This document shows, one piece after another, positions 18,912 to 31,766 of a DNA stretch of 64,000 nt (the first letter of the stretch is position 1; each line of letters opens with the position of its first letter). The position numbers and the translations under genes were made by a program. This stretch comes from Halovivax gelatinilyticus. GTDB taxonomy: Archaea; Halobacteriota; Halobacteria; Halobacteriales; Natrialbaceae. The stretch lies in contig NZ_CP101322.1 in assembly GCF_024300625.1 (NCBI RefSeq), positions 819,992 to 883,991 of the forward strand, written 5' to 3'. Below the pieces are notes generated by a model, which saw only the letters and a program-made list of their open reading frames with translations, was not told the DNA's origin and made no database searches.

Positions 18912-21900
18912 CTACGAGCGAGTTCGCCGCGCTGCGATCGACGCGATCGTCAGCACCGCGACGAGCGCCACCAGGACACCGAAGCCGGGAATTCCGTCGT
19001 CCGCGTCGCCACGGTCGTCGACCGCTCCGTCGGCTGGTGAATCGTCATCGGCAGGTTCGCCTGGTGAATCGTCCGCAGGCGGCTCGTCGTCCGTACCGGT
19101 CTCGGCCTCAGTAACCGTCACCGTTTCCGTCACCGCGTCGTCGCCGACGTCGAGGCGGAGTTCGTGCTCGCCGATATCGAGGTCGGCCGCCGAAATCTCG
19201 AACTCGAACGTTTCGCGGTCGGCTCCGTCCAGTTCGATCTCGCGCTCGTCGATAGTCCGTCCGTCGAGTTCCAGCGCGACCGTCGTCGTTCCCGACTGCT
19301 CGCCGGTGTTTTGAACGGTCGTCGCAACCGGGAGCGACGCGCCGGCAACGATCTCGTCGGGGGCATCAAATTCGACGACGTCAAACGCAGCCGGATCGGG
19401 CGTCGGTGCGGGCGGTAACCCAGGCGACGGTGTGTCGTCCGCCGGGGACGGTGCGGCGAGCGTCGCCGCGTCGTGGGCGGTCTCCGTCTCCACTCGGAGG
19501 TCAACTGACGGCGTCTCGACCTCCTCGATCAGGTGAGAGAGTGTCTCGGTCGTCTCGAAGCCGGGCTCGAGTGCGACGTCGACGCGATCGGTTTCCTCGT
19601 CGTCGACGTACAGGACGAGCGATTGCTCGTCGGCTTCGTCGCCTCGGTTCTGAACGGCGACGTCGACGTCGAACTCATCGCCGGCGGCGTCCGGCTCGGT
19701 GACGTTCGCGATCGCTACGTCGAAGGTCGGCCGATCAGGATCGAACACCGGACCGACCTCGTCGCTGATTCCCGCGGTCGACGGATCGGCATCAGGGACG
19801 TCGCCCTCGGCGAGGATGGTGACGTCCGTCCCCGTCTCGATCTCGCCGAGTTCGACCGGGACGGACGCGAACGTCGGGCTCTCGGTGGAGGCGTAGCCGA
19901 GGTGGTCGGTCGCTTCCCCGATGACCGTCCCGTTGTCGGCTACGATTTTGACGGTGGCGTCGGTCGATCCCGTCCCGCGGTTGGCCACCATCACTTGCGC
20001 AGTCACGGATCCGTCCTCCCCGACGTACTCGACGGTCCCCACGTCGAGGTCGGGCTGGGCGAACCACGCCGGACGCTCGCCTCGATCGATCGCGTCCTCG
20101 CCGACGCCGCCCGCGTCGATAGACACCCGGTCGGCGACGCTCGCGTTCAGGCCCTCGTCGCCAACGAGGGTCGAGACCGTCGCATTCTCGCCTGGATCGA
20201 CACGATCGGCGTACGCATCGGCCACCAGGTCGGTCCCGTTATCGAAGGTCAGTGGGACGTCGACGGCCGCGGCTCCACCGTCGTTTTCGACCACGGCGGT
20301 CACCTCGACGCCGCCGGCCGTCCGCTCGCTCGAGATCGCGTCGACCGAGAGGGCGGCCGTCGCCGCGACGACCGTCGTTTCCTCGACCCCGTCGTGGGTC
20401 TCCTCTGGGTAGTCGACGCGCAGGTCGAACGCGCCGTACTCGTCGACTTCGAGTTCGACCTCCCCGGACGCGTTCTCGCCCGCCCCCAGCGCGTCGTGTT
20501 CGACCTCGGCGACGACGTCCGTCGCGTTCTCGACGACGACCGTCACGCCTTCGCTCGTCGCCACGTCCCCGACGTTTCGAAGCCCGTAGGAGACCGTCGC
20601 GTTCTCGCCGGCCGGGGCCTCGCTGGTAGTGGCCGAGAGGTCGAACGCCGGGCGGAACTCGTGGTCGGCGACGAAGACGTCGTTGGTCGCGTTCGTGTCG
20701 AGTTTCTGGACGGCGTAGGCGGCGTGGAAGCCCTCGCCGTCGGCGGCCGGCGTTACGTCTGCGTGCCACGCCGTGTGGTTGGCCTCACCCACCGAGACGT
20801 GCTCACGGTCGGCGACCCAGCCGTCGCCTCGATCGAGCCGGTAGACCAGATCGTTCGCGCTCTTGCCGTCGGTCATCGCGCGATAGGAGAGGACGGTCTC
20901 GTCGTCCGCGGTCGCGAGCGCGAGTTCAGTGACGTCGCGTACGTCCTCGCGCAGGTCGAGCGCTGTGACCCCGTCGCCGTCGCCTTCGTAGACTGCCGGG
21001 TCGAAGACGCCGTCGACCCAGACAGTGCGACCGGCGTCGGTGGCGATCGACGTGGCGTTGCCAGCGTCGAACGTGGACAGCTCCTCCAGTTCACCATCTA
21101 CGAGGCGCTCTGTCACGACCGAGCCCGTCCGACTCTCGCCGGCGGATGCGTTCGCGGTCGGGCCTTCGTCGAGGGTCGCGTACGCGAGTATTGCGTCGCC
21201 GTCCGCGGTGCCGAGCGTCGGCAGCGTCGCGTCCGCGATGGCATCGACGTCGCCGGCATCGCCGTTCGCATCGACGGTTGTGTACCGTACGTCGACGCCG
21301 GAAACGTTCTCCTCTGCCATGCTGACAGACTCCCAGGCGAGCAGCCATCCGTCGGCAGTCTCGACGACCGACGGCGCGGTCTGCATCTCGTCGGATTCGG
21401 TGAGAATCGTCGGTTCGCTCCAGCCGTCGCCGTCGTCGATCGCGAAGGCGATCTCGTGGCGGGAGAACAGATCACCCGGGTCCGAGATGTCACTATCGGC
21501 TACGGGTTCGTCCCACGTCGACCACACTGCCAGCACTCCCTCCTCGGTCGCGGCGAGGGCGGGCCGTTCGTCGCTCGTCTCGTCATCGGTCAGGGTCTGC
21601 GTCTCGGACCATTCGCCGACGTTCGAGTCGTAGCGCTGATAGTGGAGGTCACGCCCGTCGTTGACGTTCTTCGTCTCGTTCTGGGCGCTCCAGACGACGA
21701 CCAGGTCGTCGCCGTCGGCGACGATCGCCGGCTGGGTATCTTCCAGGTCGCGTTCGGTCAGCCGCTCGACATCGTCAGCGGCCTCTGTACCCGCGGCGGT
21801 CGAGACGGTCACGTCCTCGTCGGCGAAGGGGCGCTCTCCGTACTTCGAGGTGAACTCCCAGGTAGGTTGCTCGAACGCCGCCGGGTCGATGATCGAGAAC

Positions 21901-24900
21901 GCGAGGGCATCGTCGAGGCCGCCGCCCCACTCGGCCGGGCCGAACGTCGGGCCGTCGCTCCACTCGAGCGGGCCGCAGAAGACGCCCAGTTCGGCCCCGA
22001 GAGCGGCTTCTCCCCGGAAATTCGTCCCCTCGGCTTGCTCGCCGAAGTCACCCAGTCCGTCGACCGAGCCCGAGGCACCGGCGCTGACGCCGCAGTAGAG
22101 GTCGAGGATGGCGTCAGCCGATAGCGTGAACCCGGCACCCATCGTTCCGTCCTCGACGGCGAGGGTTCCGTCGAGGTCGGCCTCGAGCAGATGCGTCGCG
22201 TCGATCGTGGTCTCGACGCCGATTTCACCGACCCACGGTACCTCGAAGCTGGCACCCGGACCCGGGAAGTCGTAGATCTCCCCTTCGTTCCCGAAGGACG
22301 CCGATTCGACGGTGAGCGCCGGGTCCAGCACGACCTCGACTTCCCATTCGCCCTCGGAGCCAGTGTCGACGAGCGGACCGAAACTCGCACCGGCGTCGCC
22401 ATCGAGGTGGACGGTACCCGCGACGGCCTCGGTGTCGTACGTGAACAACATGATCGGTTCGCTAGCCAACCCGAACGTGTTGTAGACGATCGGTAACTCC
22501 TGGATACCGGTCGACTCTTCGATCACCGCGTCCGGGCTCACCGTGGCGGTGATCGCTCCGGCCGCCCGGTCGACGTCGGCGTCCTCGAGCGGCTCCTCGA
22601 GCCACTCGGGCGTCTCGAGCACCGACACCATCTCGGTCATCTCCCACTCGCCACCGTCGGCGGTGACCGCGGTCACCGTCAGCTCCTCGTCTCCGTCGAG
22701 TTCTCCCAGGTCGAACGTCGCCGACGCCTCCTGTTCGAGTCCGTCGGATTGTGGGAGTTTCGTCTGCGTCTCGTCGCCGAGTTCGAAGACGAATTCTTCG
22801 ACGTCGACCGCCTCCGCGCCCACGGTGTCCACGCTGAACATCCTGGCCGTGAACGTCTCCTCCCACTCGACGCCGGTGAGCGGGACGCCGCCGTACTCCC
22901 GATCGATCGACGTCGACGCCACCGGCTGCGGGTCCCACACGATCGTCGGGAGCGGGATCGTGACGTCGACCGAGTCCTCGGTGCCGTCGACGTCGGTGAC
23001 GGTCACCGTCTGCGTTCCGTAGGGGATGTTCCCGAGTTCGGCCGTGTACTCGTGGAAGACGTACGAGCCCTGGGCGGTGGTGCCGTCGCCGAAGTCCCAG
23101 GTGGGGTTCTCCGCGTCCGTCGCGTAGAACAGGACCGTCTCCCCCAGCTGCGGCTCCGAGGGCGTGACCACGAGCCCGAGGTCGATCTCCTGGACAGCGA
23201 CGGGCACCGTCTCGGCGTCGTCATCGGTGACGACCGAGAAGTGGTACTGGCCGACGTCATCGGGGCCGGTCTCCCACTCGAGGGTGACCGACTCGCTCTC
23301 ACCGGCGTCGAGGGCGACCGTTTCGTTCGCGAGCACCGTATCGTTCTCGTCGCGGAGTTCGACGGTTTCGGCTCCGGATTCGTCCCCGACGTTCTCGACG
23401 GTCGCGTCGACCTCGAACGTCTCGTTCGCGGTCACCGGTGAGTTCACCGAGTCGACCGAGATCTCGAAGGTTGCTGGAGTGAACGCGTCGACAGTTACAG
23501 TCGTCGCGTCGGAATCTTGCTCGCCGAGAACGGACAGCGAGTGCGTCCCCGCATCCCCGTCATCCGTCGGCCAGACCAGATCGATCGTTTGGATTCCAAC
23601 ATCGTCGAATTCGATCGTTTCGTCGTCGAGAACAGTCCCATCTTCGTCTCGAAGTTCGATCGTCTCCGCGTGCGATCCCTGCCCGGAATAGTCGGCTTGA
23701 ACCTCGACTTCCAGCGGCTCGCCTTCGGTCACGGGATCGGTCGTCGAGTGAATTTCCAGAGTGAGTACGATCGGATCGAGTTCGACGTCGACGACCGTTT
23801 CCTCGTCCGTTTCGAGTTCGATTCCCTCGACGCCACCGGGTTCGTATCCATCGGCGTTGATCACCAGGTGGTAGGTCCCCTCCTCGGGAGCTTCCAATCC
23901 GTAGTCGCCGGTCGCGTCAGTCACTGCCTGTGCGACGACGGCATCCGACTCGTCTACGAGTGCAACGTCCGCGTCGGCGATACTGCTTCCCGTATCCGCA
24001 TCGGAGACGGTACCGCTAACCGTCGGTCCGGGAATCGCCTCAACTTCGATCGATCGCGACGTGCGTGCGGTCGTCCCCCATTCGTCCTCGACCTCGAGCG
24101 TGACCTCGTAACTTCCCGCCTCGTCGTACGTGTACGTGATCTCCGGCACGTCCGTGGACTCGAACGAGCCGTCGCCCTCGAAGTCCCAGCGGTAGCTCGC
24201 GATCTCGCCGCCCGGAGACACCGAATCGCCAGCGTCGAAGGAGACGGGTTCGTCTTCGAACGGCTCCTCGGGTGCGAACGCGAACGCCGGGAACGGTTCG
24301 TCACCGACCGGTTCGGTCAGCCACGGAGCGAAGCAGACGGTTCCGTGTTCCGCGACAATCTCGTCACCCGATCCGTCCGCACTCTCCTCACCACACCCGT
24401 CGGAGACACCGCCGCTCGGCCCCGACTCGTGGCCCCACCAGTTCTCGGTCGCATCGAGTGATGGTGGCGTCCCGAACGGATCGTATCGCAGACCGACGTC
24501 GTTGCCCTGGATCGCGTTATCCGAGATGGTAACGACCTCGGCGTCGTCGTCGAGGACGATCCCATCACCGTTGTCCTGGATCACGTTGTCCCGGACGACG
24601 ACGTCCACCAGGTCGCCGGAGACGTGGAGTTCGACACCGACGTCGTTTCCGAGGACCGTGTTGTTCGCGACCGTCGAATTCTCCGCCGGGTCGACCAGTT
24701 CGAGCGACATCCCGTGTCCGTCGTTTTCGAGTGCCGCCGTTTCGACGACGTGGAGTGGCGCGACCTCTTCGACGTAGACGCCATCGTCCGCACTTCGTGA
24801 GACGGTGCTCGAATCGAGGGTGACGTTCTCGGAGACGGCCAGGTGGATTCCCTCGGTCGGACTGTCGGTGACGAGAGTATCTTCGATCGTCACGTCCGTT

Positions 24901-27656
24901 GCGTAGGCGACGTGAATTGGCGTCGCGACGCCGTCGGCCTCGATCTCCTCGATCGTCACGTCCGCCGCGTTGACCACGATCACCTGGCCGACGTCGCTCG
25001 GGACGGTGACGGATTCGGCCCCGAACGAGTGATACAGCGGCTTCCCGTCGACGGTGTTGTTCGCGATCTCGTGGTCGAATTTGTCGAAATTTTCGTTGTA
25101 CCCGCCCAGACTCGATTCCTCGATTCGTATGCCGGCGTCGAACTCGTTGTCGAGGACCGTCGCGTTGGTCGACTCGACCAGCCGGAGGTCGACGGCGTGG
25201 CCGGAGACGACGTTGCCGGTGATCGGTCCGTCGCTCCACTCCACGACGTGGATGCCGTCGTTCGCGTTGTTCGACACCGTGTTGTTTCGCACCGTTCCGA
25301 CGTCCGAACTGATTCCGTGGCCATCGTTTCCGGTGACGGTGTTGCCCTCGACCTGCCCATCGCGGGTGACCTCGATGCCGGTCCCGCCGTTGTCCGACAC
25401 GTCGTTCGCCACCACCCGCGCGTTGAGCGCGTCGATTCCGACGTCGTCGTTGTCGGAGACGACGTTGTCCACGATCGTGAGGTGATCGACCGCCTCGCTT
25501 GCGTGCTGGCTGACGTCGATCCCCTCGCCGTTTCCGCGGACCTCGTTCGATTCGACGGTCAGGTTCACGTTCCCGCTCTGAGCCGTCGTCGTCCCGATCC
25601 CCTCCCACTGATTGTCCGTGACGGCGTTGTCGACGATCAACGTATCTTCGACGTCGTCGAAGTTGATCCCATCGGCGTTCTCCCGAACGGTGTTGTTCGC
25701 GACGAGCGCGTTCGAGAGGTCCTCGACGTTGATGCCCTGCTGGTCGTTACGTTCGAGTACGTTCTCCCGGATCGTCGCCCCGTGAGAGCCGTCGCGAACG
25801 TACACACCCTTGCGCTCTGCACTATCCGTGACGAGGTTGTTTGAAACTGTCACCCCGCTCGAGCCGTCGATGAAGACGCCCGAAAGTTCCATCGACGTAA
25901 TCTCGTTGTCCGAAACGTCCGCGTCCGCACCGTCGTAGATCGCGAGTCCCTTCCAGTCACTCGCCGAAATCGTGTTCTCTGATACCGTCGATTCAGCCGA
26001 GCCCCAGAGCGTAATCGACCCCCGGCTAAAGGTGAGGTCCTCGCTCCCGCCCATCTCGGTCAGCGTGTTATCCTCGATCGCGGTACCGTCGCTGTAGGCG
26101 ACCTGAATACCGGCCGCGACGCCGTCGAGTTCGAACTCGCGAATCTCGACGTCGGACGAGTCGACGACGATGATCTGGCCCGCATCGGCAGGGATCTCGG
26201 GAGCCGTCTCGCCGTTGGCGAAGTAGACCGGGTCACCGTCGACCGTGTTGTCCGCGAACGCGTGATCGAAGTCTTCGAGTTGCGTGCCGTCGAGCGCGAC
26301 GCCGGATTCGAACTCGTTTCCGATCACGGTGGTGTTGACGGATTCGACGATGTCGAGGTCGACGTCGTGACCGGTCACCACGTTATCTTCGACGATCGTG
26401 TTCGCGTTCGGGCCGTAGTCGCCCCAGGTGTCTGCCTCCCCATCGAGGAAAATCCCCTGCACGTCGTTGTCACGAACTTCGTTCCCCGTGATCGTCGAAT
26501 CCGAAGAGAGCGTGAGGTGGATGCCGCCTTCGTCACCGCCGCCCCCGTGTGCGTTCCCGTCGACGAGGTTGTCCGAGATCGTGATGTTGTCGGCCTCTTG
26601 TACGCGAATTCCCTCATCGCCGTGGTCGGTGACCGAGTTGTTCGCCACGAATCCGTGGTGAGACGACTCGTCGAATGTGATCCCCTGGTCGCTCCCGAAG
26701 CCGCCGTGCACGTCGTTGTCCGCCACGACACCGTACTGAGACTGCCAGAAGCGAATGCCTCGATTGCTATTGTCCGTAATGTTGTTGGATCGAATCGCGA
26801 CGCGTTCGGAGTGAGAGATGATGACGGCGTCGTTTGCCCTGTTGTCGTACACCGTGGTGTTCTCGATACTGGTTCCGTCGGATGCTTCAGCGACCCGAAC
26901 CGCATGGCTATTCGTTACGAGCGTGCTATCGACGATGCTGGCGTCCACGGAGCCAGTGAGGTGCACGCCGTCACCTGTTTCCCGGACGGTCACGTTATCG
27001 AGACGGGCACCGCTGGAACCGTCGATGACGATGCCGTCCTCGCCGTCGTGATCCACAACGTACGTATCTTCGATCACGAGGTTCGGGGAGTCGGTAACGT
27101 AGATTCCGAACCCGTTATTCGGCATTCCGAGTCCACTCTCTACCACCACAGTGGTGTCGGCGATTCGAACGTCCGTCGAGCCCTGGACGACGATCGCGGT
27201 GTCGCCCCGATAGTTGGTTACGTTCAATCCACCGACGACGACGCCGTCCGCTCCGTCGATCGTGATGGCCGTGTCCAGTTTGACCGATCCATCACCTTCG
27301 AGCACCGGTCGTTGCCCATCGGCCGCAACGATCGAGAGATCGTCGACATCGATCAGAAGTTCTTCCTCGTAGGTTCCGGACTCCACGACGATCGTATCGC
27401 CCGGGGCGGAATTGTTGATGGCGTCCTGAATCGACTCACCGTCGGCGACGAGCGTGGTGTCGCCGTCCGCGACGAGCGTGGGATCCGACGCGCCAACCGA
27501 TCCGCCGAGAGTCACGGCGGCCACGGCCAGTACGCACAGTACGAGGACGGTTGCCACGATGGTCGTCCGGCCGATGAGGGTCGTTTCGCCCGTTCGATCA
27601 GGCCGCGCGGCCGGGCGGCGATCACCGTCGCCTTCGTCGGTGCCGTCGCCGCCCAT
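18912..27656 (-). CDS. Giant beta-helix/PKD/CARDB surface protein, PGF-CTERM-like
   Basis: A 2914-residue secreted protein. It has a signal sequence/anchor at about residues 25-55 (TIVATVLVLCVLAVAAVTL). A NosD/PbH1-type right-handed beta-helix follows at about 65-1090 with dozens of turns (SIQDAINNSAPGDTIVVESG; many NTTVxxN turns). Next are a PKD domain at about 1140-1205, a carboxypeptidase-regulatory-like domain at about 1212-1290, CARDB domains, a second PKD at about 1495-1575 (WDFGDGTTAQGS), an unassigned stretch, a propeller-like part at about 1960-2340 (DTQPAIVADGDDLVVVW) and more CARDB repeats. The end is an acidic Pro/Asp linker, PGFG, a membrane helix and basic residues, which suits PGF-CTERM sorting by archaeosortase ArtA. 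The ATG lies one base past the SnoaL-like stop, so the two form an operon. It may be an adhesin or polysaccharide-acting protein. Confidence 0.9.
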   Translation of the reverse strand: MGGDGTDEGDGDRRPAARPDRTGETTLIGRTTIVATVLVLCVLAVAAVTLGGSVGASDPTLVADGDTTLVADGESIQDAINNSAPGDTIVVESGTYEEELLIDVDDLSIVAADGQRPVLEGDGSVKLDTAITIDGADGVVVGGLNVTNYRGDTAIVVQGSTDVRIADTTVVVESGLGMPNNGFGIYVTDSPNLVIEDTYVVDHDGEDGIVIDGSSGARLDNVTVRETGDGVHLTGSVDASIVDSTLVTNSHAVRVAEASDGTSIENTTVYDNRANDAVIISHSERVAIRSNNITDNSNRGIRFWQSQYGVVADNDVHGGFGSDQGITFDESSHHGFVANNSVTDHGDEGIRVQEADNITISDNLVDGNAHGGGGDEGGIHLTLSSDSTITGNEVRDNDVQGIFLDGEADTWGDYGPNANTIVEDNVVTGHDVDLDIVESVNTTVIGNEFESGVALDGTQLEDFDHAFADNTVDGDPVYFANGETAPEIPADAGQIIVVDSSDVEIREFELDGVAAGIQVAYSDGTAIEDNTLTEMGGSEDLTFSRGSITLWGSAESTVSENTISASDWKGLAIYDGADADVSDNEITSMELSGVFIDGSSGVTVSNNLVTDSAERKGVYVRDGSHGATIRENVLERNDQQGINVEDLSNALVANNTVRENADGINFDDVEDTLIVDNAVTDNQWEGIGTTTAQSGNVNLTVESNEVRGNGEGIDVSQHASEAVDHLTIVDNVVSDNDDVGIDALNARVVANDVSDNGGTGIEVTRDGQVEGNTVTGNDGHGISSDVGTVRNNTVSNNANDGIHVVEWSDGPITGNVVSGHAVDLRLVESTNATVLDNEFDAGIRIEESSLGGYNENFDKFDHEIANNTVDGKPLYHSFGAESVTVPSDVGQVIVVNAADVTIEEIEADGVATPIHVAYATDVTIEDTLVTDSPTEGIHLAVSENVTLDSSTVSRSADDGVYVEEVAPLHVVETAALENDGHGMSLELVDPAENSTVANNTVLGNDVGVELHVSGDLVDVVVRDNVIQDNGDGIVLDDDAEVVTISDNAIQGNDVGLRYDPFGTPPSLDATENWWGHESGPSGGVSDGCGEESADGSGDEIVAEHGTVCFAPWLTEPVGDEPFPAFAFAPEEPFEDEPVSFDAGDSVSPGGEIASYRWDFEGDGSFESTDVPEITYTYDEAGSYEVTLEVEDEWGTTARTSRSIEVEAIPGPTVSGTVSDADTGSSIADADVALVDESDAVVAQAVTDATGDYGLEAPEEGTYHLVINADGYEPGGVEGIELETDEETVVDVELDPIVLTLEIHSTTDPVTEGEPLEVEVQADYSGQGSHAETIELRDEDGTVLDDETIEFDDVGIQTIDLVWPTDDGDAGTHSLSVLGEQDSDATTVTVDAFTPATFEISVDSVNSPVTANETFEVDATVENVGDESGAETVELRDENDTVLANETVALDAGESESVTLEWETGPDDVGQYHFSVVTDDDAETVPVAVQEIDLGLVVTPSEPQLGETVLFYATDAENPTWDFGDGTTAQGSYVFHEYTAELGNIPYGTQTVTVTDVDGTEDSVDVTIPLPTIVWDPQPVASTSIDREYGGVPLTGVEWEETFTARMFSVDTVGAEAVDVEEFVFELGDETQTKLPQSDGLEQEASATFDLGELDGDEELTVTAVTADGGEWEMTEMVSVLETPEWLEEPLEDADVDRAAGAITATVSPDAVIEESTGIQELPIVYNTFGLASEPIMLFTYDTEAVAGTVHLDGDAGASFGPLVDTGSEGEWEVEVVLDPALTVESASFGNEGEIYDFPGPGASFEVPWVGEIGVETTIDATHLLEADLDGTLAVEDGTMGAGFTLSADAILDLYCGVSAGASGSVDGLGDFGEQAEGTNFRGEAALGAELGVFCGPLEWSDGPTFGPAEWGGGLDDALAFSIIDPAAFEQPTWEFTSKYGERPFADEDVTVSTAAGTEAADDVERLTERDLEDTQPAIVADGDDLVVVWSAQNETKNVNDGRDLHYQRYDSNVGEWSETQTLTDDETSDERPALAATEEGVLAVWSTWDEPVADSDISDPGDLFSRHEIAFAIDDGDGWSEPTILTESDEMQTAPSVVETADGWLLAWESVSMAEENVSGVDVRYTTVDANGDAGDVDAIADATLPTLGTADGDAILAYATLDEGPTANASAGESRTGSVVTERLVDGELEELSTFDAGNATSIATDAGRTVWVDGVFDPAVYEGDGDGVTALDLREDVRDVTELALATADDETVLSYRAMTDGKSANDLVYRLDRGDGWVADREHVSVGEANHTAWHADVTPAADGEGFHAAYAVQKLDTNATNDVFVADHEFRPAFDLSATTSEAPAGENATVSYGLRNVGDVATSEGVTVVVENATDVVAEVEHDALGAGENASGEVELEVDEYGAFDLRVDYPEETHDGVEETTVVAATAALSVDAISSERTAGGVEVTAVVENDGGAAAVDVPLTFDNGTDLVADAYADRVDPGENATVSTLVGDEGLNASVADRVSIDAGGVGEDAIDRGERPAWFAQPDLDVGTVEYVGEDGSVTAQVMVANRGTGSTDATVKIVADNGTVIGEATDHLGYASTESPTFASVPVELGEIETGTDVTILAEGDVPDADPSTAGISDEVGPVFDPDRPTFDVAIANVTEPDAAGDEFDVDVAVQNRGDEADEQSLVLYVDDEETDRVDVALEPGFETTETLSHLIEEVETPSVDLRVETETAHDAATLAAPSPADDTPSPGLPPAPTPDPAAFDVVEFDAPDEIVAGASLPVATTVQNTGEQSGTTTVALELDGRTIDEREIELDGADRETFEFEISAADLDIGEHELRLDVGDDAVTETVTVTEAETGTDDEPPADDSPGEPADDDSPADGAVDDRGDADDGIPGFGVLVALVAVLTIASIAARRTRS

Positions 27657-27657
27657 C

Positions 27658-28095
27658 CTACACCCCCTCCGGCACGGCCCCGATCTGCGAGAAGAGCCCG
27701 AACGTATCCCAGACGTCGACGGTCTCCACCAGTTTCCCCTCGTCAACGCGGAATACCGACGTTCCCTCCAGCTCGAACGAGCGGCCGGTCGGCGCGATCC
27801 CCATGATCTCGCCGTCGTGGGTACCGGTCGACGTGTAGGTGAGAACGACCGCGTTCCCGTCGACGTACGTCTCGCGGACGCTCTTCGTCAGGGTGGGCGA
27901 CCCGGTCCGAACCGTGGCGACCCACTCTTTTAGCGCGCTCGCCCCGGAGATCGGCTCCTCGAGTAGCGGATCGTGGTGAACGTGGCGGTCCGCCACGAGT
28001 TCGTCGATCAGTTCGAGATCCCCGGTGCTCCACACCTCGCGGAGCATCAGCTGGGCCGGGTTCGCCGTCGATTTCGGTCCGTATTCGACAGTCAT
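27658..28095 (-). CDS. SnoaL-like ester cyclase family protein
   Basis: A 145-residue NTF2-fold protein similar to SnoaL/polyketide cyclases: LMLREVWSTGDLELIDELVADRHVHHDPL, a central LKEWVATVRTGSPTLTKSVRE, and a C-terminal LEGTSVFRVDEGKLVETVDVWD. Stand-alone members are often small hydrolases, isomerases or binding proteins of unknown substrate. It is the first gene of a two-gene operon with the giant surface protein, an unexpected pairing. The ATG at 28095 is supported by CCATAAACA about 33 bases upstream and by the shared upstream site at 28138-28152; the longer open frame would swallow that promoter. Confidence 0.8.
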   Translation of the reverse strand: MTVEYGPKSTANPAQLMLREVWSTGDLELIDELVADRHVHHDPLLEEPISGASALKEWVATVRTGSPTLTKSVRETYVDGNAVVLTYTSTGTHDGEIMGIAPTGRSFELEGTSVFRVDEGKLVETVDVWDTFGLFSQIGAVPEGV

Positions 28096-28269: not shown

Positions 28270-29436
28270 TCAGGAGGCGCGATGGCGCCGGAACACGTAC
28301 GCCACCGTTACAGCCAGCGCGAGCAATCCGAGTATCAGACCGTACCCGACGAACCCGTCGTCACCATCGTCGGTCGAGTCCGTCACCTCACCCGCCGGTG
28401 GTACGTGGTCGTCCGCGCTCGCCGAGTCGTCTCCCGACTCGGTAGATTCTCCGTCCGCATCGTCGGGCGCATTCGGATCGACGACCGACACCGATTCCGC
28501 CAGCACGTCGGGAACCGCCACCTCGAACTCGCCCTCGGCGTCGAACGCGTGGCCCAGCATCACCGTCTCTTCGCCCCCGCCGGCGAGGGCGATGTCGACT
28601 TCGTCGACGCGGTCGCCGTCGACGAGCAGTGAGACCGTCTTCGTCCCGACCTCGTCGCCGACGTTCGTCACCGTGACCTCGACGGTGAGCGCCTCGCCGA
28701 GCTCGAGCGACGTCGCAGAGAGGGTCGCCTCGCCGAACTCGAACGACGCCGGCTCGGCCGGCGGTGGCGGTGGTGGTAATCCGATCCCGCCCGAGGACTC
28801 CTCGACGGCGAGCGATGCGGTTCGCTCGCCAGCGTCGAGTTCGAATCTGACGGCGCCGTCGGCGTCGACCTCGGCTTCGAGATCGGCGTCCTCGGCGGTG
28901 ACGGTCTCGCCCTCGTCCAGTCCGGTGTCGAGAATCGTCAGCGCAAACGACTCGCTCGCGTTCGACGCGACCGCGACGGGCTCGTCCGCGAAGTCGCCAT
29001 CCGAGACGGCGAGTCCGTCGACCGATCCGTCGACGGTGAACGAGAGTCCGTCCGCCGGTTCGACCGTAACCGGATGCGACGCGGCGTCGATCGCCGCGAG
29101 ACAGGTTGCTCCGTCGCTGTGGCGCTCGAGTCTGAGGCTCGCCTCACCGGGCGCAGCGAACGAGACGTCGACGGTCGTCCCGAGTGCGACGGTCTCGTCG
29201 TCGGGGAACGTCGGGTACCCCTCGTCCGGCGCAGAGTGGTTGTCCTCGAGTTCGAGGCCGCTGTCGGTGACGTAGACGGGGCCGCCGCCGTCGCCACCGG
29301 CGCAGGCGAGGTTTGCGTCGTCGGCCGCAGTGAGTCCAGGGACGAAGGCTATGGTGACTGTGAGTGCGAGTACGAGCGCGAGCATCGACGGCAGTCGCGA
29401 GCACCAACGGGCCGTCGATCGACCCGGATCAGTCAT
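28270..29436 (-). CDS. CARDB-domain surface protein with C-terminal anchor
   Basis: A 388-residue secreted protein: signal peptide at about 12-38 (LPSMLALVLALTVTIAFVPGLTA), an N-terminal beta-rich domain with two cysteines (NLACAGG; ATCLAAI), a Pro-rich linker (GLPPPPPPAEP) near 225, and a CARDB-like adhesion domain at about 230-315 (GEALTVEVTVTNVGDEVGTKTVSL). An acidic Ser/Asp linker, a final membrane helix (YGLILGLLALAVTVAYVF) and a basic tail RRHRAS follow. This is the layout of cell-wall-anchored haloarchaeal proteins, though a clean PGF triplet is absent. Its ATG overlaps the stop of the upstream adhesin-like gene by eight bases, so the two form an operon. Confidence 0.8.
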   Translation of the reverse strand: MTDPGRSTARWCSRLPSMLALVLALTVTIAFVPGLTAADDANLACAGGDGGGPVYVTDSGLELEDNHSAPDEGYPTFPDDETVALGTTVDVSFAAPGEASLRLERHSDGATCLAAIDAASHPVTVEPADGLSFTVDGSVDGLAVSDGDFADEPVAVASNASESFALTILDTGLDEGETVTAEDADLEAEVDADGAVRFELDAGERTASLAVEESSGGIGLPPPPPPAEPASFEFGEATLSATSLELGEALTVEVTVTNVGDEVGTKTVSLLVDGDRVDEVDIALAGGGEETVMLGHAFDAEGEFEVAVPDVLAESVSVVDPNAPDDADGESTESGDDSASADDHVPPAGEVTDSTDDGDDGFVGYGLILGLLALAVTVAYVFRRHRAS

Positions 29437-30877
29437 CGGTTTCGACGGCCGTCGTCGATTCAGCTCCGTGGCGCTCTTCGACTGCGTCTATCTGTTCGTC
29501 AAGCGATTCGACTCGATCGACCAGCTCGTCCAGTTTCTCGGCGAGGCCTTGAATCGCCGCGAACGCGACGCCGTGGCGATCCGTAGACGAAATCGAACCG
29601 TCGTCAACGCCGAGGCCGAAGATCTCCGCAAAATCCTCGGCCATCGGCCCCATGTGGCGTCCGCTGTCACGATCGACGAACTCCCAGGTGCTCACCTCGA
29701 GCGAAGTGAGATCCTCGAGGACGGCCGCCGGATCGACCGGTTCGATCGCGGTCTTCGTCTCCCGGGCGCTCGTCTCGTTGAATTCCGGGGCGTAGACCTC
29801 CATCTGAAAACGCGCTTCGTCCTCACCGTCCGAGGAGACAGCTGCTATCGACGAGTCTCCAAAGACGAACGAGCCGTCGTGGGTCGCCCAGGCCCCACGA
29901 CCAGCGGCGAAGCTGTAATCGCCGCTCGCCTCGTTGGCTTGGCCGCCCGCGACCGTCGAATTCTCACCGCCCGCCTCGTTGTCTTCGCCCCCACCAACCG
30001 TGGAGTTCTCACCGACTGCCTTGTTGTCTTCGCCCCCGCCAACCGTCGAATTCTCCCCGCCCGCCTCGTTGTACCGTCCGCCCCCGATAGTCGAATTCGT
30101 CGCGGTCGCTTCGTTGTAGAATCCACCGCCGACCGTTGATTGGCCGCCGGTGGCGTCGTTATTGTTTCCACCGGCGATCGTCGCGTCGTTGTCACTCGCG
30201 TAGTTATTGACCCCTCCAGCGATCGTCGATCGGATGCCGTCGGCTTCGTTATTAAGCCCGCCTCCCACAGTGGAGCGCTGCTGGGTAGCGGCGTTCGATC
30301 CTCCACCGCCGACCGTCGAGAAGTTACCGGTCGCCTCGTTACCCTCGCCACCGCCGACCGTCGCGTATTCGTCTTCCGCCACGTTCGGATTCGTCTCCGA
30401 GCCGCCGCCACCGATCGTCGCACCAACTGCGTCCTCGGCGACGCCGTTTTCGGAGTGTCCGGTGACGATGTTGCCCGCCTCGTCACCATCCTCGACGGTG
30501 AGTTCGAACGCGTCGGACGTCGGAACGCCGTCAATTGAAGTCGTTACCAGCCGCTCTAGCGGTCGCTCGCTCGTCCCCACCTGTCCGGACGCACTCCCCC
30601 CGTTTGCGCCGACGGACGTCGCGCCCAGCCCCACCAGACCGGCCACTCCGAGGCCCGCAAGCGCGGACCGTCGGCTGAGAACCGCGCTGGGAGCGCCTCC
30701 GTCATCGTTGCCAGCGTCGGTCGCCTCGAATTCGTCAACCGTCGTTTGCAGAACCTCGTTCTGCGATTCGAGCGTCTCGATCGTCTCCTGCTGATCCCGG
30801 ACGATCGTCTCTAGCGCCTCGATTCGCTCGAACACCTGTGACTCGCTATCGGGGTCGATGTCGTTTGCCGTGGCCAT
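29429..30877 (-). CDS. Trimeric-adhesin-like protein with Peptidase_S74 chaperone domain
   Basis: A 482-residue protein with four parts. Residues 15-55 are a coiled coil (VFERIEALETIVRDQQETIE). Near 66-90 is a twin-Arg hydrophobic segment (SRRSALAGLGVAGLVGLGA), probably a Tat-type signal or anchor. From about 150 to 335 are some twelve 15-16-residue repeats of the YadA-head type (GGGEDNEAGGENSTV). The C-terminal part at about 360-450 resembles the intramolecular chaperone of phage tail spikes, Peptidase_S74 (ARETKTAIEPVDPAAVLEDL, MGPMAEDFAEIFGLG), followed by a coiled coil. Ser370 and Lys375 (SARETK) have the Ser-x4-Lys spacing of the self-cleaving dyad. It likely forms a trimeric surface fibre. 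The ATG at 30877 is placed by the promoter at 30905-30934. Confidence 0.82.
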   Translation of the reverse strand: MATANDIDPDSESQVFERIEALETIVRDQQETIETLESQNEVLQTTVDEFEATDAGNDDGGAPSAVLSRRSALAGLGVAGLVGLGATSVGANGGSASGQVGTSERPLERLVTTSIDGVPTSDAFELTVEDGDEAGNIVTGHSENGVAEDAVGATIGGGGSETNPNVAEDEYATVGGGEGNEATGNFSTVGGGGSNAATQQRSTVGGGLNNEADGIRSTIAGGVNNYASDNDATIAGGNNNDATGGQSTVGGGFYNEATATNSTIGGGRYNEAGGENSTVGGGEDNKAVGENSTVGGGEDNEAGGENSTVAGGQANEASGDYSFAAGRGAWATHDGSFVFGDSSIAAVSSDGEDEARFQMEVYAPEFNETSARETKTAIEPVDPAAVLEDLTSLEVSTWEFVDRDSGRHMGPMAEDFAEIFGLGVDDGSISSTDRHGVAFAAIQGLAEKLDELVDRVESLDEQIDAVEERHGAESTTAVETDD

Positions 30878-30934: not shown

Positions 30935-31112
30935 AGTCATCCGGAGAACTATACCGCATTGTTGTGAGAACATTAATAATTGTGTACAGTTCTCTCAGTT
31001 CGACCAGTAAACGTCGAGCGAATCGATCTTTCAGTTCGTTCGAGATGCAGCTCACACCCGTCTCTCACGAATCAAACGCAGTTCCGGCAAACAGCGAGGT
31101 GATCCACCGATC

Positions 31113-31766
31113 TCAGTCACACTCGTCGGGAAGCGTGATCGGTTGCGTCGCACCCCACGAGTGAAAGTCGACTTGCTGATTTTCCGTTTCACTTCGAATC
31201 GGATACCCAGTGTCGACGCTCACGTAGATCGTTTCCGCGTCGTCTTCGAACACGTAGACCTCCTCGCCGCCGATCGTCGCCGTCCCGACCGCCTGATTCG
31301 ACACGACACTCGAATCGGGTTCTAAGTCCGTATCGACGTACGAGCCGTCCTCGGGATCGCGGCTGTCGAATTCACAATTTCCCATCACGTTGATGTAGTG
31401 CTCGCCGTCGATGCCGTACATCTCGACGACTGGCCCACCTTCCTCTTCGATTTCGACGCGGTAATCGCCCTCGTGAACGACCTGCGTTCCGGTCGCCGGC
31501 ATCTCGCCGGTGATCTCGATGTCGACGGCGAACGACGATTCGAACGCGACGATGTCGCCGTAGGTTACGTCTTCCGGTGCCGGTCCTGTGTCTTCGACCT
31601 CTGCGTCGTCGGTTCCGCCGCCGTTACCCTCGCCGCCGGTCTGCGGGCCGAATCCACCGGATCCGTCGTCGTCCGACGAATCGTCGTCCGAACAGCCGGC
31701 CAGCGCGGCCGCGGTCGTCGTTCCGAACAGTGCAAGTGTGCGTCGTCGGGATACCCCGTCGGTCAT
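31113..31766 (-). CDS. Tat-secreted lipoprotein, unknown function
   Basis: A 217-residue haloarchaeal lipoprotein. The start MTDGVSRRRTLALFG has the twin-arginine motif and ALAGC is the lipobox (Cys25), followed by an Asp/Ser/Gly-rich tether. The mature domain is beta-rich (VAFESSFAVDIEITGEMPAT ... GEHYINVMGNCEF ... ETIYVSVDTGYPIRSE) and recalls LolA/LprG-like lipoprotein folds, but I cannot assign it. Two cysteines in the mature part could form a disulfide. It has its own promoter with the shared surface-regulon site. Confidence 0.8.
   Translation of the reverse strand: MTDGVSRRRTLALFGTTTAAALAGCSDDDSSDDDGSGGFGPQTGGEGNGGGTDDAEVEDTGPAPEDVTYGDIVAFESSFAVDIEITGEMPATGTQVVHEGDYRVEIEEEGGPVVEMYGIDGEHYINVMGNCEFDSRDPEDGSYVDTDLEPDSSVVSNQAVGTATIGGEEVYVFEDDAETIYVSVDTGYPIRSETENQQVDFHSWGATQPITLPDECD

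Follow-up and report, generated by a model that had tools for sequence, protein, structure and literature searches.

We analysed a stretch of 64,000 nucleotides from Halovivax gelatinilyticus (hereafter the window) and consider it likely that two overlapping genes in it form a haloarchaeal surface-fibre system, in which a fibre protein would trimerise in the cytoplasm, be cut by its own Peptidase_S74 domain, leave the cell by Tat export and dock on a domain, named DSG here after its TDSGLE motif, of a partner protein that probably holds the fibre on the cell surface. Nothing else at the locus is as informative as the conserved gene for this membrane-anchored partner, which the preliminary description had overlooked. 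All parts of the fibre are of familiar types. The arrangement of two genes, with a new domain and a putative trimeric zipper ahead of the Tat signal, appears to be undescribed in the literature searched, in which no paper on haloarchaeal S74 proteins or on such fibres was found.

Domain architecture of the fibre protein

The fibre gene occupies positions 29429..30877 of the minus strand, stop codon included, and encodes 482 amino acids, as judged from its open reading frame, translation and Pfam matches; an upstream ATG at 30973 merely gives an atypical extension of 32 residues. From the N-terminus onward the protein comprises a coiled coil, a Tat-type signal, a UspA1-like beta-roll and a Peptidase_S74 chaperone domain, which confirms the reading frame and the architecture observed in the preliminary description. 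The sequence of the mature fibre contains no anchor of its own.

The N-terminal coiled coil (residues 9-55; 30713..30853, minus strand) is a helix in the AF2 model with heptads read from the sequence (a positions I19, V26, I33, N40 and V47; d positions L22, Q29, L36 and L43), and is predicted to be cytoplasmic and to be removed together with the signal peptide. It contains RIEALE (residues 18-23; 30809..30826, minus strand), a RhxxhE trimeric coiled-coil motif in the g-a-x-x-d-e register; such motifs specify parallel three-stranded coiled coils, yet are also present in some dimers (PMC3653964). Behind it stands the Tat-type signal SRRSALAGLGVAGLVGLGATSVGA (residues 68-91; 30605..30676, minus strand), which was aligned with 15 other module proteins and in which, by sequence alone, a twin-arginine motif, an h-region and a signal peptidase site can be read (SRRSAL...SVGA). 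The earlier proposal of a coiled-coil N-terminus ahead of a Tat-like segment is borne out by the modelled helix 9-55 and the SRRSAL segment at 68-91.

The conserved mature N-terminus, GQVGTSERPLERLVTTSIDG (residues 98-117; 30527..30586, minus strand), was recognised from the module alignment and searches and is the proposed docking segment. We refer to the coiled-coil N-region, SRRxxL, the Tat h-region and GQ(I/L/V)GTxxxPLxxLY together as the module; the docking motif of the window fibre is itself atypical, reading GQVGTSERPLERLVTT without LY. RhxxhE was found in the N-regions before the twin arginines of 21 of 33 module proteins, compared with 0.9 expected from shuffles. As a control, Tat-like ORFs from these loci were compared: the motif occurred in 17 of the 21 with GQIGT and in 2 of the 37 without (Fisher 4e-9), and the median length of the N-region was 69 residues in the GQIGT Tat ORFs against 16 in the other Tat ORFs.

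The beta-roll of 15-residue repeats (residues 140-345; 29843..30460, minus strand) was identified by Pfam (UspA1_rep, 37.2 bits against a cut-off of 27), by AF2, whose pLDDT in the roll is mostly 90-98, and by Foldseek. The head structure of UspA1 (3pr7) was matched by the fibre sequence among PDB sequences (E 2e-28) and was the best Foldseek match of the model as well (E 3e-8), followed by BpaC (7o23) and CbpF (9gh5). The strict 15-mer repeat runs through nine consecutive turns, with diverged turns flanking it on both sides; the earlier count of about twelve repeats is therefore fair, but their likeness to the YadA head gives way to UspA1 in both profile and structure, YadA_head (PF05658) scoring 17.6 bits, below its cut-off of 25. 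The anchor beta-barrel of YadA (type Vc adhesin) had no Pfam match in the fibre up to E 10, and in its place the AF2 model carries the S74 domain and a helix.

The Peptidase_S74/ICA domain extends from residue 370 to about residue 445 (29543..29770, minus strand), as judged from Pfam and dyad conservation, and the C-terminal coiled-coil helix covers residues 434-477 (29447..29578, minus strand; AF2). The domain matched at residues 370-420 with 28.0 bits against a Pfam cut-off of 22, scored 32.2 bits in the genome search and is present in a single copy in the genome. The dyad in SARETK is formed by Ser370 (29768-29770) and Lys375 (29753-29755, both minus strand), and the cut is predicted before Ser370. 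Its i+5 spacing is shared by S911/K916 of endoNF and S587/K592 of MyRF (PMC8326128); in MyRF, mutating either dyad residue abolishes cleavage, and cleavage requires the trimer (PMC8326128, PMC3742443). Among the 121 relatives that cover both positions, the Ser-x4-Lys dyad is kept in 118 (Ser in 118, Lys in 120), the exceptions being a Cys variant, a fragment and one degenerate copy, so that the S74-like C-terminus with its dyad, as first described, is upheld by both profile score and conservation. A bacterial S74 domain at locus L140 (2-1783) has Cys as the residue at the nucleophile position (WCDRNAK).

In MYRF an Asp is conserved directly after the dyad Ser (PMC3742443); the fibre has Ala at this position, and many relatives have Ala, Ser or Thr. 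Despite the missing Asp, the dyad spacing and the conservation of Ser and Lys make self-cleavage of the fibre likely. The AF2 monomer model has low confidence in the S74 core, including the dyad region 365-378, as is expected for an obligate trimer folded alone, and a comparison of the S74 profile with PDB sequences gave no real match.

The partner gene and its association with the fibre module

The partner gene (28270..29436, minus strand) encodes 388 amino acids with a Sec signal, the DSG domain (28810..29319), a CARDB domain identified by Pfam (28513..28725) and a C-terminal transmembrane anchor helix (residues 366-387; 28276..28341; AF2 helix and sequence), all on the minus strand. Its start lies inside the last codons of the fibre gene, the two overlapping by 8 bp (ATGACTGA). 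Overlapping fibre and partner reading frames were seen in two genera, and at locus L046 a DSG partner with a dockerin again overlaps by 8 bp. In further genera, BLASTP homologues of the partner (E 6e-22 to 2e-11) lie on the downstream side of fibre genes.

The DSG domain has about 170 residues (45-211 of the partner) and an all-beta model, and no library match was obtained for it: Pfam, NCBIfam and PHROG gave nothing significant in the DSG region and matched the CARDB and kinase parts alone. Foldseek and VIA-align searches with the partner were likewise dominated by CARDB/FnIII-like matches, the CARDB domain filling the match lists, and returned nothing usable for DSG. Two cysteines (C45 and C112 in the partner) are mostly both present or both absent among homologues, which suggests from sequence covariation a C45-C112 disulphide.

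In a class-wide search, DSG was detected in 29 of 391 haloarchaeal genomes, representing 16 of 86 genera; in 294 genomes sampled from the phylum it did not occur beyond the class. A six-frame profile scan placed a same-strand module gene within about 5 kb at 27 of 32 distinct DSG loci, some of these module matches being weak (L097, E 0.02; L106, E 1e-3), and DSG lay downstream in 25. The module was absent at the five other loci, and four module matches had no DSG nearby; the gene order is reversed at L094, and genome G208 has both genes in separate places. Specifically for S74 fibres, DSG was adjacent at 11 of 11 loci with the module and at none of about 30 without it (Fisher 3e-10); the sample includes non-independent, related genomes and some short contigs, and at L040 the fibre reading frame is broken.

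Genes beyond the fibre/DSG pair vary from locus to locus, and the pairing is therefore not general synteny. The passengers carried by the module beside DSG vary as well (S74, C1q/BclA-like), as do the anchors of the DSG proteins, which include a transmembrane helix, PGF-CTERM, dockerin and a 7TM histidine kinase, while module and DSG stay constant. This exchange of passengers and anchors around two constant elements is our main argument that module and DSG are in mutual contact, as we infer. The DSG gene follows two tandem fibres at L038 and L167 (Salinarchaeum laminariae R26), and at L042 and L128 (Halomicrobium katesii) DSG is fused to a 7TM-PAS-histidine kinase. At L042 (8811-13579), L128 and L049/L126 a second 7TM kinase, which lacks DSG, comes after the DSG kinase; the kinase-type partner of L049/L126 looks truncated.

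One apparent module gene, at L189 (4260-5141), was set aside because its fibre N-module runs on into a partner-like CARDB/PGF-CTERM tail, probably the outcome of a deletion that fused fibre and partner. The genome of the window has a second cluster (L087, 1700000-1719900) with two more fibre/DSG pairs, whose fibres are without S74. Upstream of the window fibre lies a Tat lipoprotein gene (31113..31766, minus strand), a weak candidate for a third member of the system; two other genes of this genome (positions 1683408 and 1705211) are clear paralogues of it, and one stands directly upstream of the second cluster of fibre and partner genes. It was rejected as a fixed third gene, homologues near fibre/partner genes being found in the same genome only. 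Downstream of the pair, a gene for a giant surface protein of 2944 aa (18912-27746, minus strand) encodes a NosD beta-helix, PKD, CARDB and PGF-CTERM.

Proposed assembly route and competing explanations

In the mechanism we propose, fibre chains would trimerise in the cytoplasm, helped by the RhxxhE zipper at the N-terminus and by S74 with its coiled coil at the C-terminus. Within a correct trimer the conserved Ser370/Lys375 dyad would cut before Ser370 and release the C-terminal device. The folded trimer would then be exported by Tat, and signal peptidase, judging from the signal sequence, would take off the signal and, with it, the coiled coil at the N-terminus. The GQVGT..PL..L segment of the mature, anchorless beta-roll trimer may then serve to dock it on DSG in the partner, so that the cell surface would bear a replaceable fibre with an adhesive or sensory role.

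S74 proteins occur in at least 22 of 391 haloarchaeal genomes, a lower bound to which loci L088 and L094 add two, and a scan of named genomes found the S74 subfamily of the fibre, frequently combined with beta-rolls, in haloarchaea, Verrucomicrobia, Chloroflexota, Planctomycetota and others. The combination of beta-roll and S74 is common in these three bacterial phyla, its proteins being annotated by NCBI as 'tail fiber domain-containing protein'. The view that an archaeal fibre built in this way would be unusual is not sustained by these counts, and since the domain combination occurs elsewhere it is not novel by itself. Viral contigs, 2.9 million in all, yielded two weak S74 loci, against 334 stretches in cellular genomes; the S74 subfamily of the fibre is cellular, not viral, and patchily spread. 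The S74 tree divides the haloarchaeal sequences among several groups, with module fibres intermixed with non-module fibres. Five loci (L033, L039, L041, L044 and L047) carry haloarchaeal S74 proteins without any signal that share the N-terminus NHDYNVP..DWHxPLNxNF, and one protein of this type adjoins an annotated phage tail protein and PQQ beta-propellers.

Virus-like settings were encountered for DSG. A DSG profile search of the viral contigs gave nothing; distant DSG proteins with module neighbours are found on plasmid PL23 of Natronomonas pharaonis and similar elements, and for the membrane stem of the PL23-type partner a homologue was found in the lemon-shaped virus LSV-48N, in a protein of 904 aa (29.5%, E 7e-21). 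DSG had no match in LSV-48N, and the relation is limited to the stem. According to the LSV-48N paper (PMC12714723), an abundant unknown protein is similar to an SSV19 tail protein; we infer that this abundant protein is the stem homologue. From the PL23-type pairs and their stem, the fibre/DSG pair may have moved between cells and viruses. One replicon carries repeated copies of a distant DSG gene (G265:C4 8844, 22921, 36998 and 60807), and a further copy is on the chromosome; the first three copies on the replicon lie 14,077 bp apart, which suggests a repeated or concatenated element.

That the S74 fibre is the tail fibre of a provirus or virus remnant, and so part of a virion, is the reading suggested by the phage fibres from which S74 is best known, by tblastn matches to the S74 domain in 13 phage records, and by the PL23-type pairs with their LSV-48N-like stem. 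We regard it as highly improbable, as there are no virion genes near the fibre, whose neighbours are surface proteins and a regulator, the viral contigs returned only the two weak relatives, and the fibre has a Tat signal and an anchored partner; a viral or proviral origin of the window gene was rejected on the neighbourhood and the viral-contig scans. The fibre could also be secreted or matrix-associated, and the partner a surface protein that shares its regulation without binding it; this would agree with the anchorless mature fibre and with the fact that CARDB is common in surface proteins and uninformative on a binding partner. This is unlikely in our view, because the partner goes specifically with fibres that carry the GQIGT module, whatever the passenger or anchor, and S74 fibres lacking the module have none next to them.

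Two further explanations accept the pair and change what it does. S74 might promote trimerisation only, leaving the C-terminal coiled coil on the fibre, and the Ala at motif position 2, where MYRF conserves Asp (PMC3742443), as well as the variable sequences flanking the dyad among relatives, could be read in this way; Ser and Lys are nevertheless kept in 118 of 121 domains while adjacent positions vary, and haloarchaeal S74 proteins without the Asp retain both dyad residues, so we give little credence to a non-cutting domain. A fibre acting as the input of a sensory pathway rather than as an adhesin, its binding being reported by the DSG protein, takes its appeal from Halomicrobium katesii and relatives, in which DSG is the extracellular part of the 7TM-PAS-histidine kinase beside the fibre. 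As most partners, including that of the window, lack a signalling domain, this too seems distinctly unlikely.

The surface-fibre system thus remains the preferred explanation. We put at about even the chances of a wider one, in which it represents an undescribed archaeal display system whose fibres are double-zipped, exported by Tat as trimers, plugged into DSG on swappable carriers (membrane anchor, sortase-type anchor, dockerin or sensor kinase) and shared with virus-like elements. If the proposal is true, archaea would have an equivalent of trimeric adhesins that does without an outer membrane, and trimers could leave the cell pre-assembled, by way of Tat. The disposable zippers would amount to a built-in quality check, S74 being lost by correctly trimerised fibres only, and DSG would be a general docking site for swappable fibres. 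In addition, the kinase-fused DSG would make contact or ligand sensing in haloarchaea directly testable, and a prokaryotic cellular use of S74 would be added beside MYRF.

Comparison with known systems

The trimeric autotransporter adhesins UspA1, YadA and BpaC resemble the fibre in the left-handed beta-roll head, the UspA1_rep profile and the UspA1 fold. In contrast to them, the fibre is without the YadA anchor beta-barrel, its host is without an outer membrane, and it has a C-terminal S74 domain, predicted Tat export and an anchor on a second protein. With the phage tail-spike chaperones (endoNF, GA-1/phi29 gp12 and T5 LTF; PF13884) it shares the C-terminal S74/ICA domain, the Ser-x4-Lys dyad and the coiled coil that follows; its S74 subfamily is, however, cell-encoded, its stem is a beta-roll and not a triple beta-helix, and it adds an N-terminal coiled coil and a Tat signal. 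The eukaryotic membrane-bound transcription factor MYRF shares the cellular S74/ICA fold and the dyad spacing (PMC3742443, PMC8326128), whereas the protein described here is a putative surface fibre and has no transmembrane segment behind its ICA domain.

Bacterial and haloarchaeal 'tail fiber domain-containing' proteins such as Haur_5099 of Herpetosiphon and WP_259532799 of Halalkaliarchaeum likewise combine beta-roll and S74, with identities of up to 50%; among proteins of this type none was found with an adjacent DSG partner, and WP_259532799 has a Tat signal without the GQIGT module. The PL23-type elements, in which the passenger and the stem differ from those of the window, likewise have a Tat-type module protein adjoining a membrane-anchored DSG protein.
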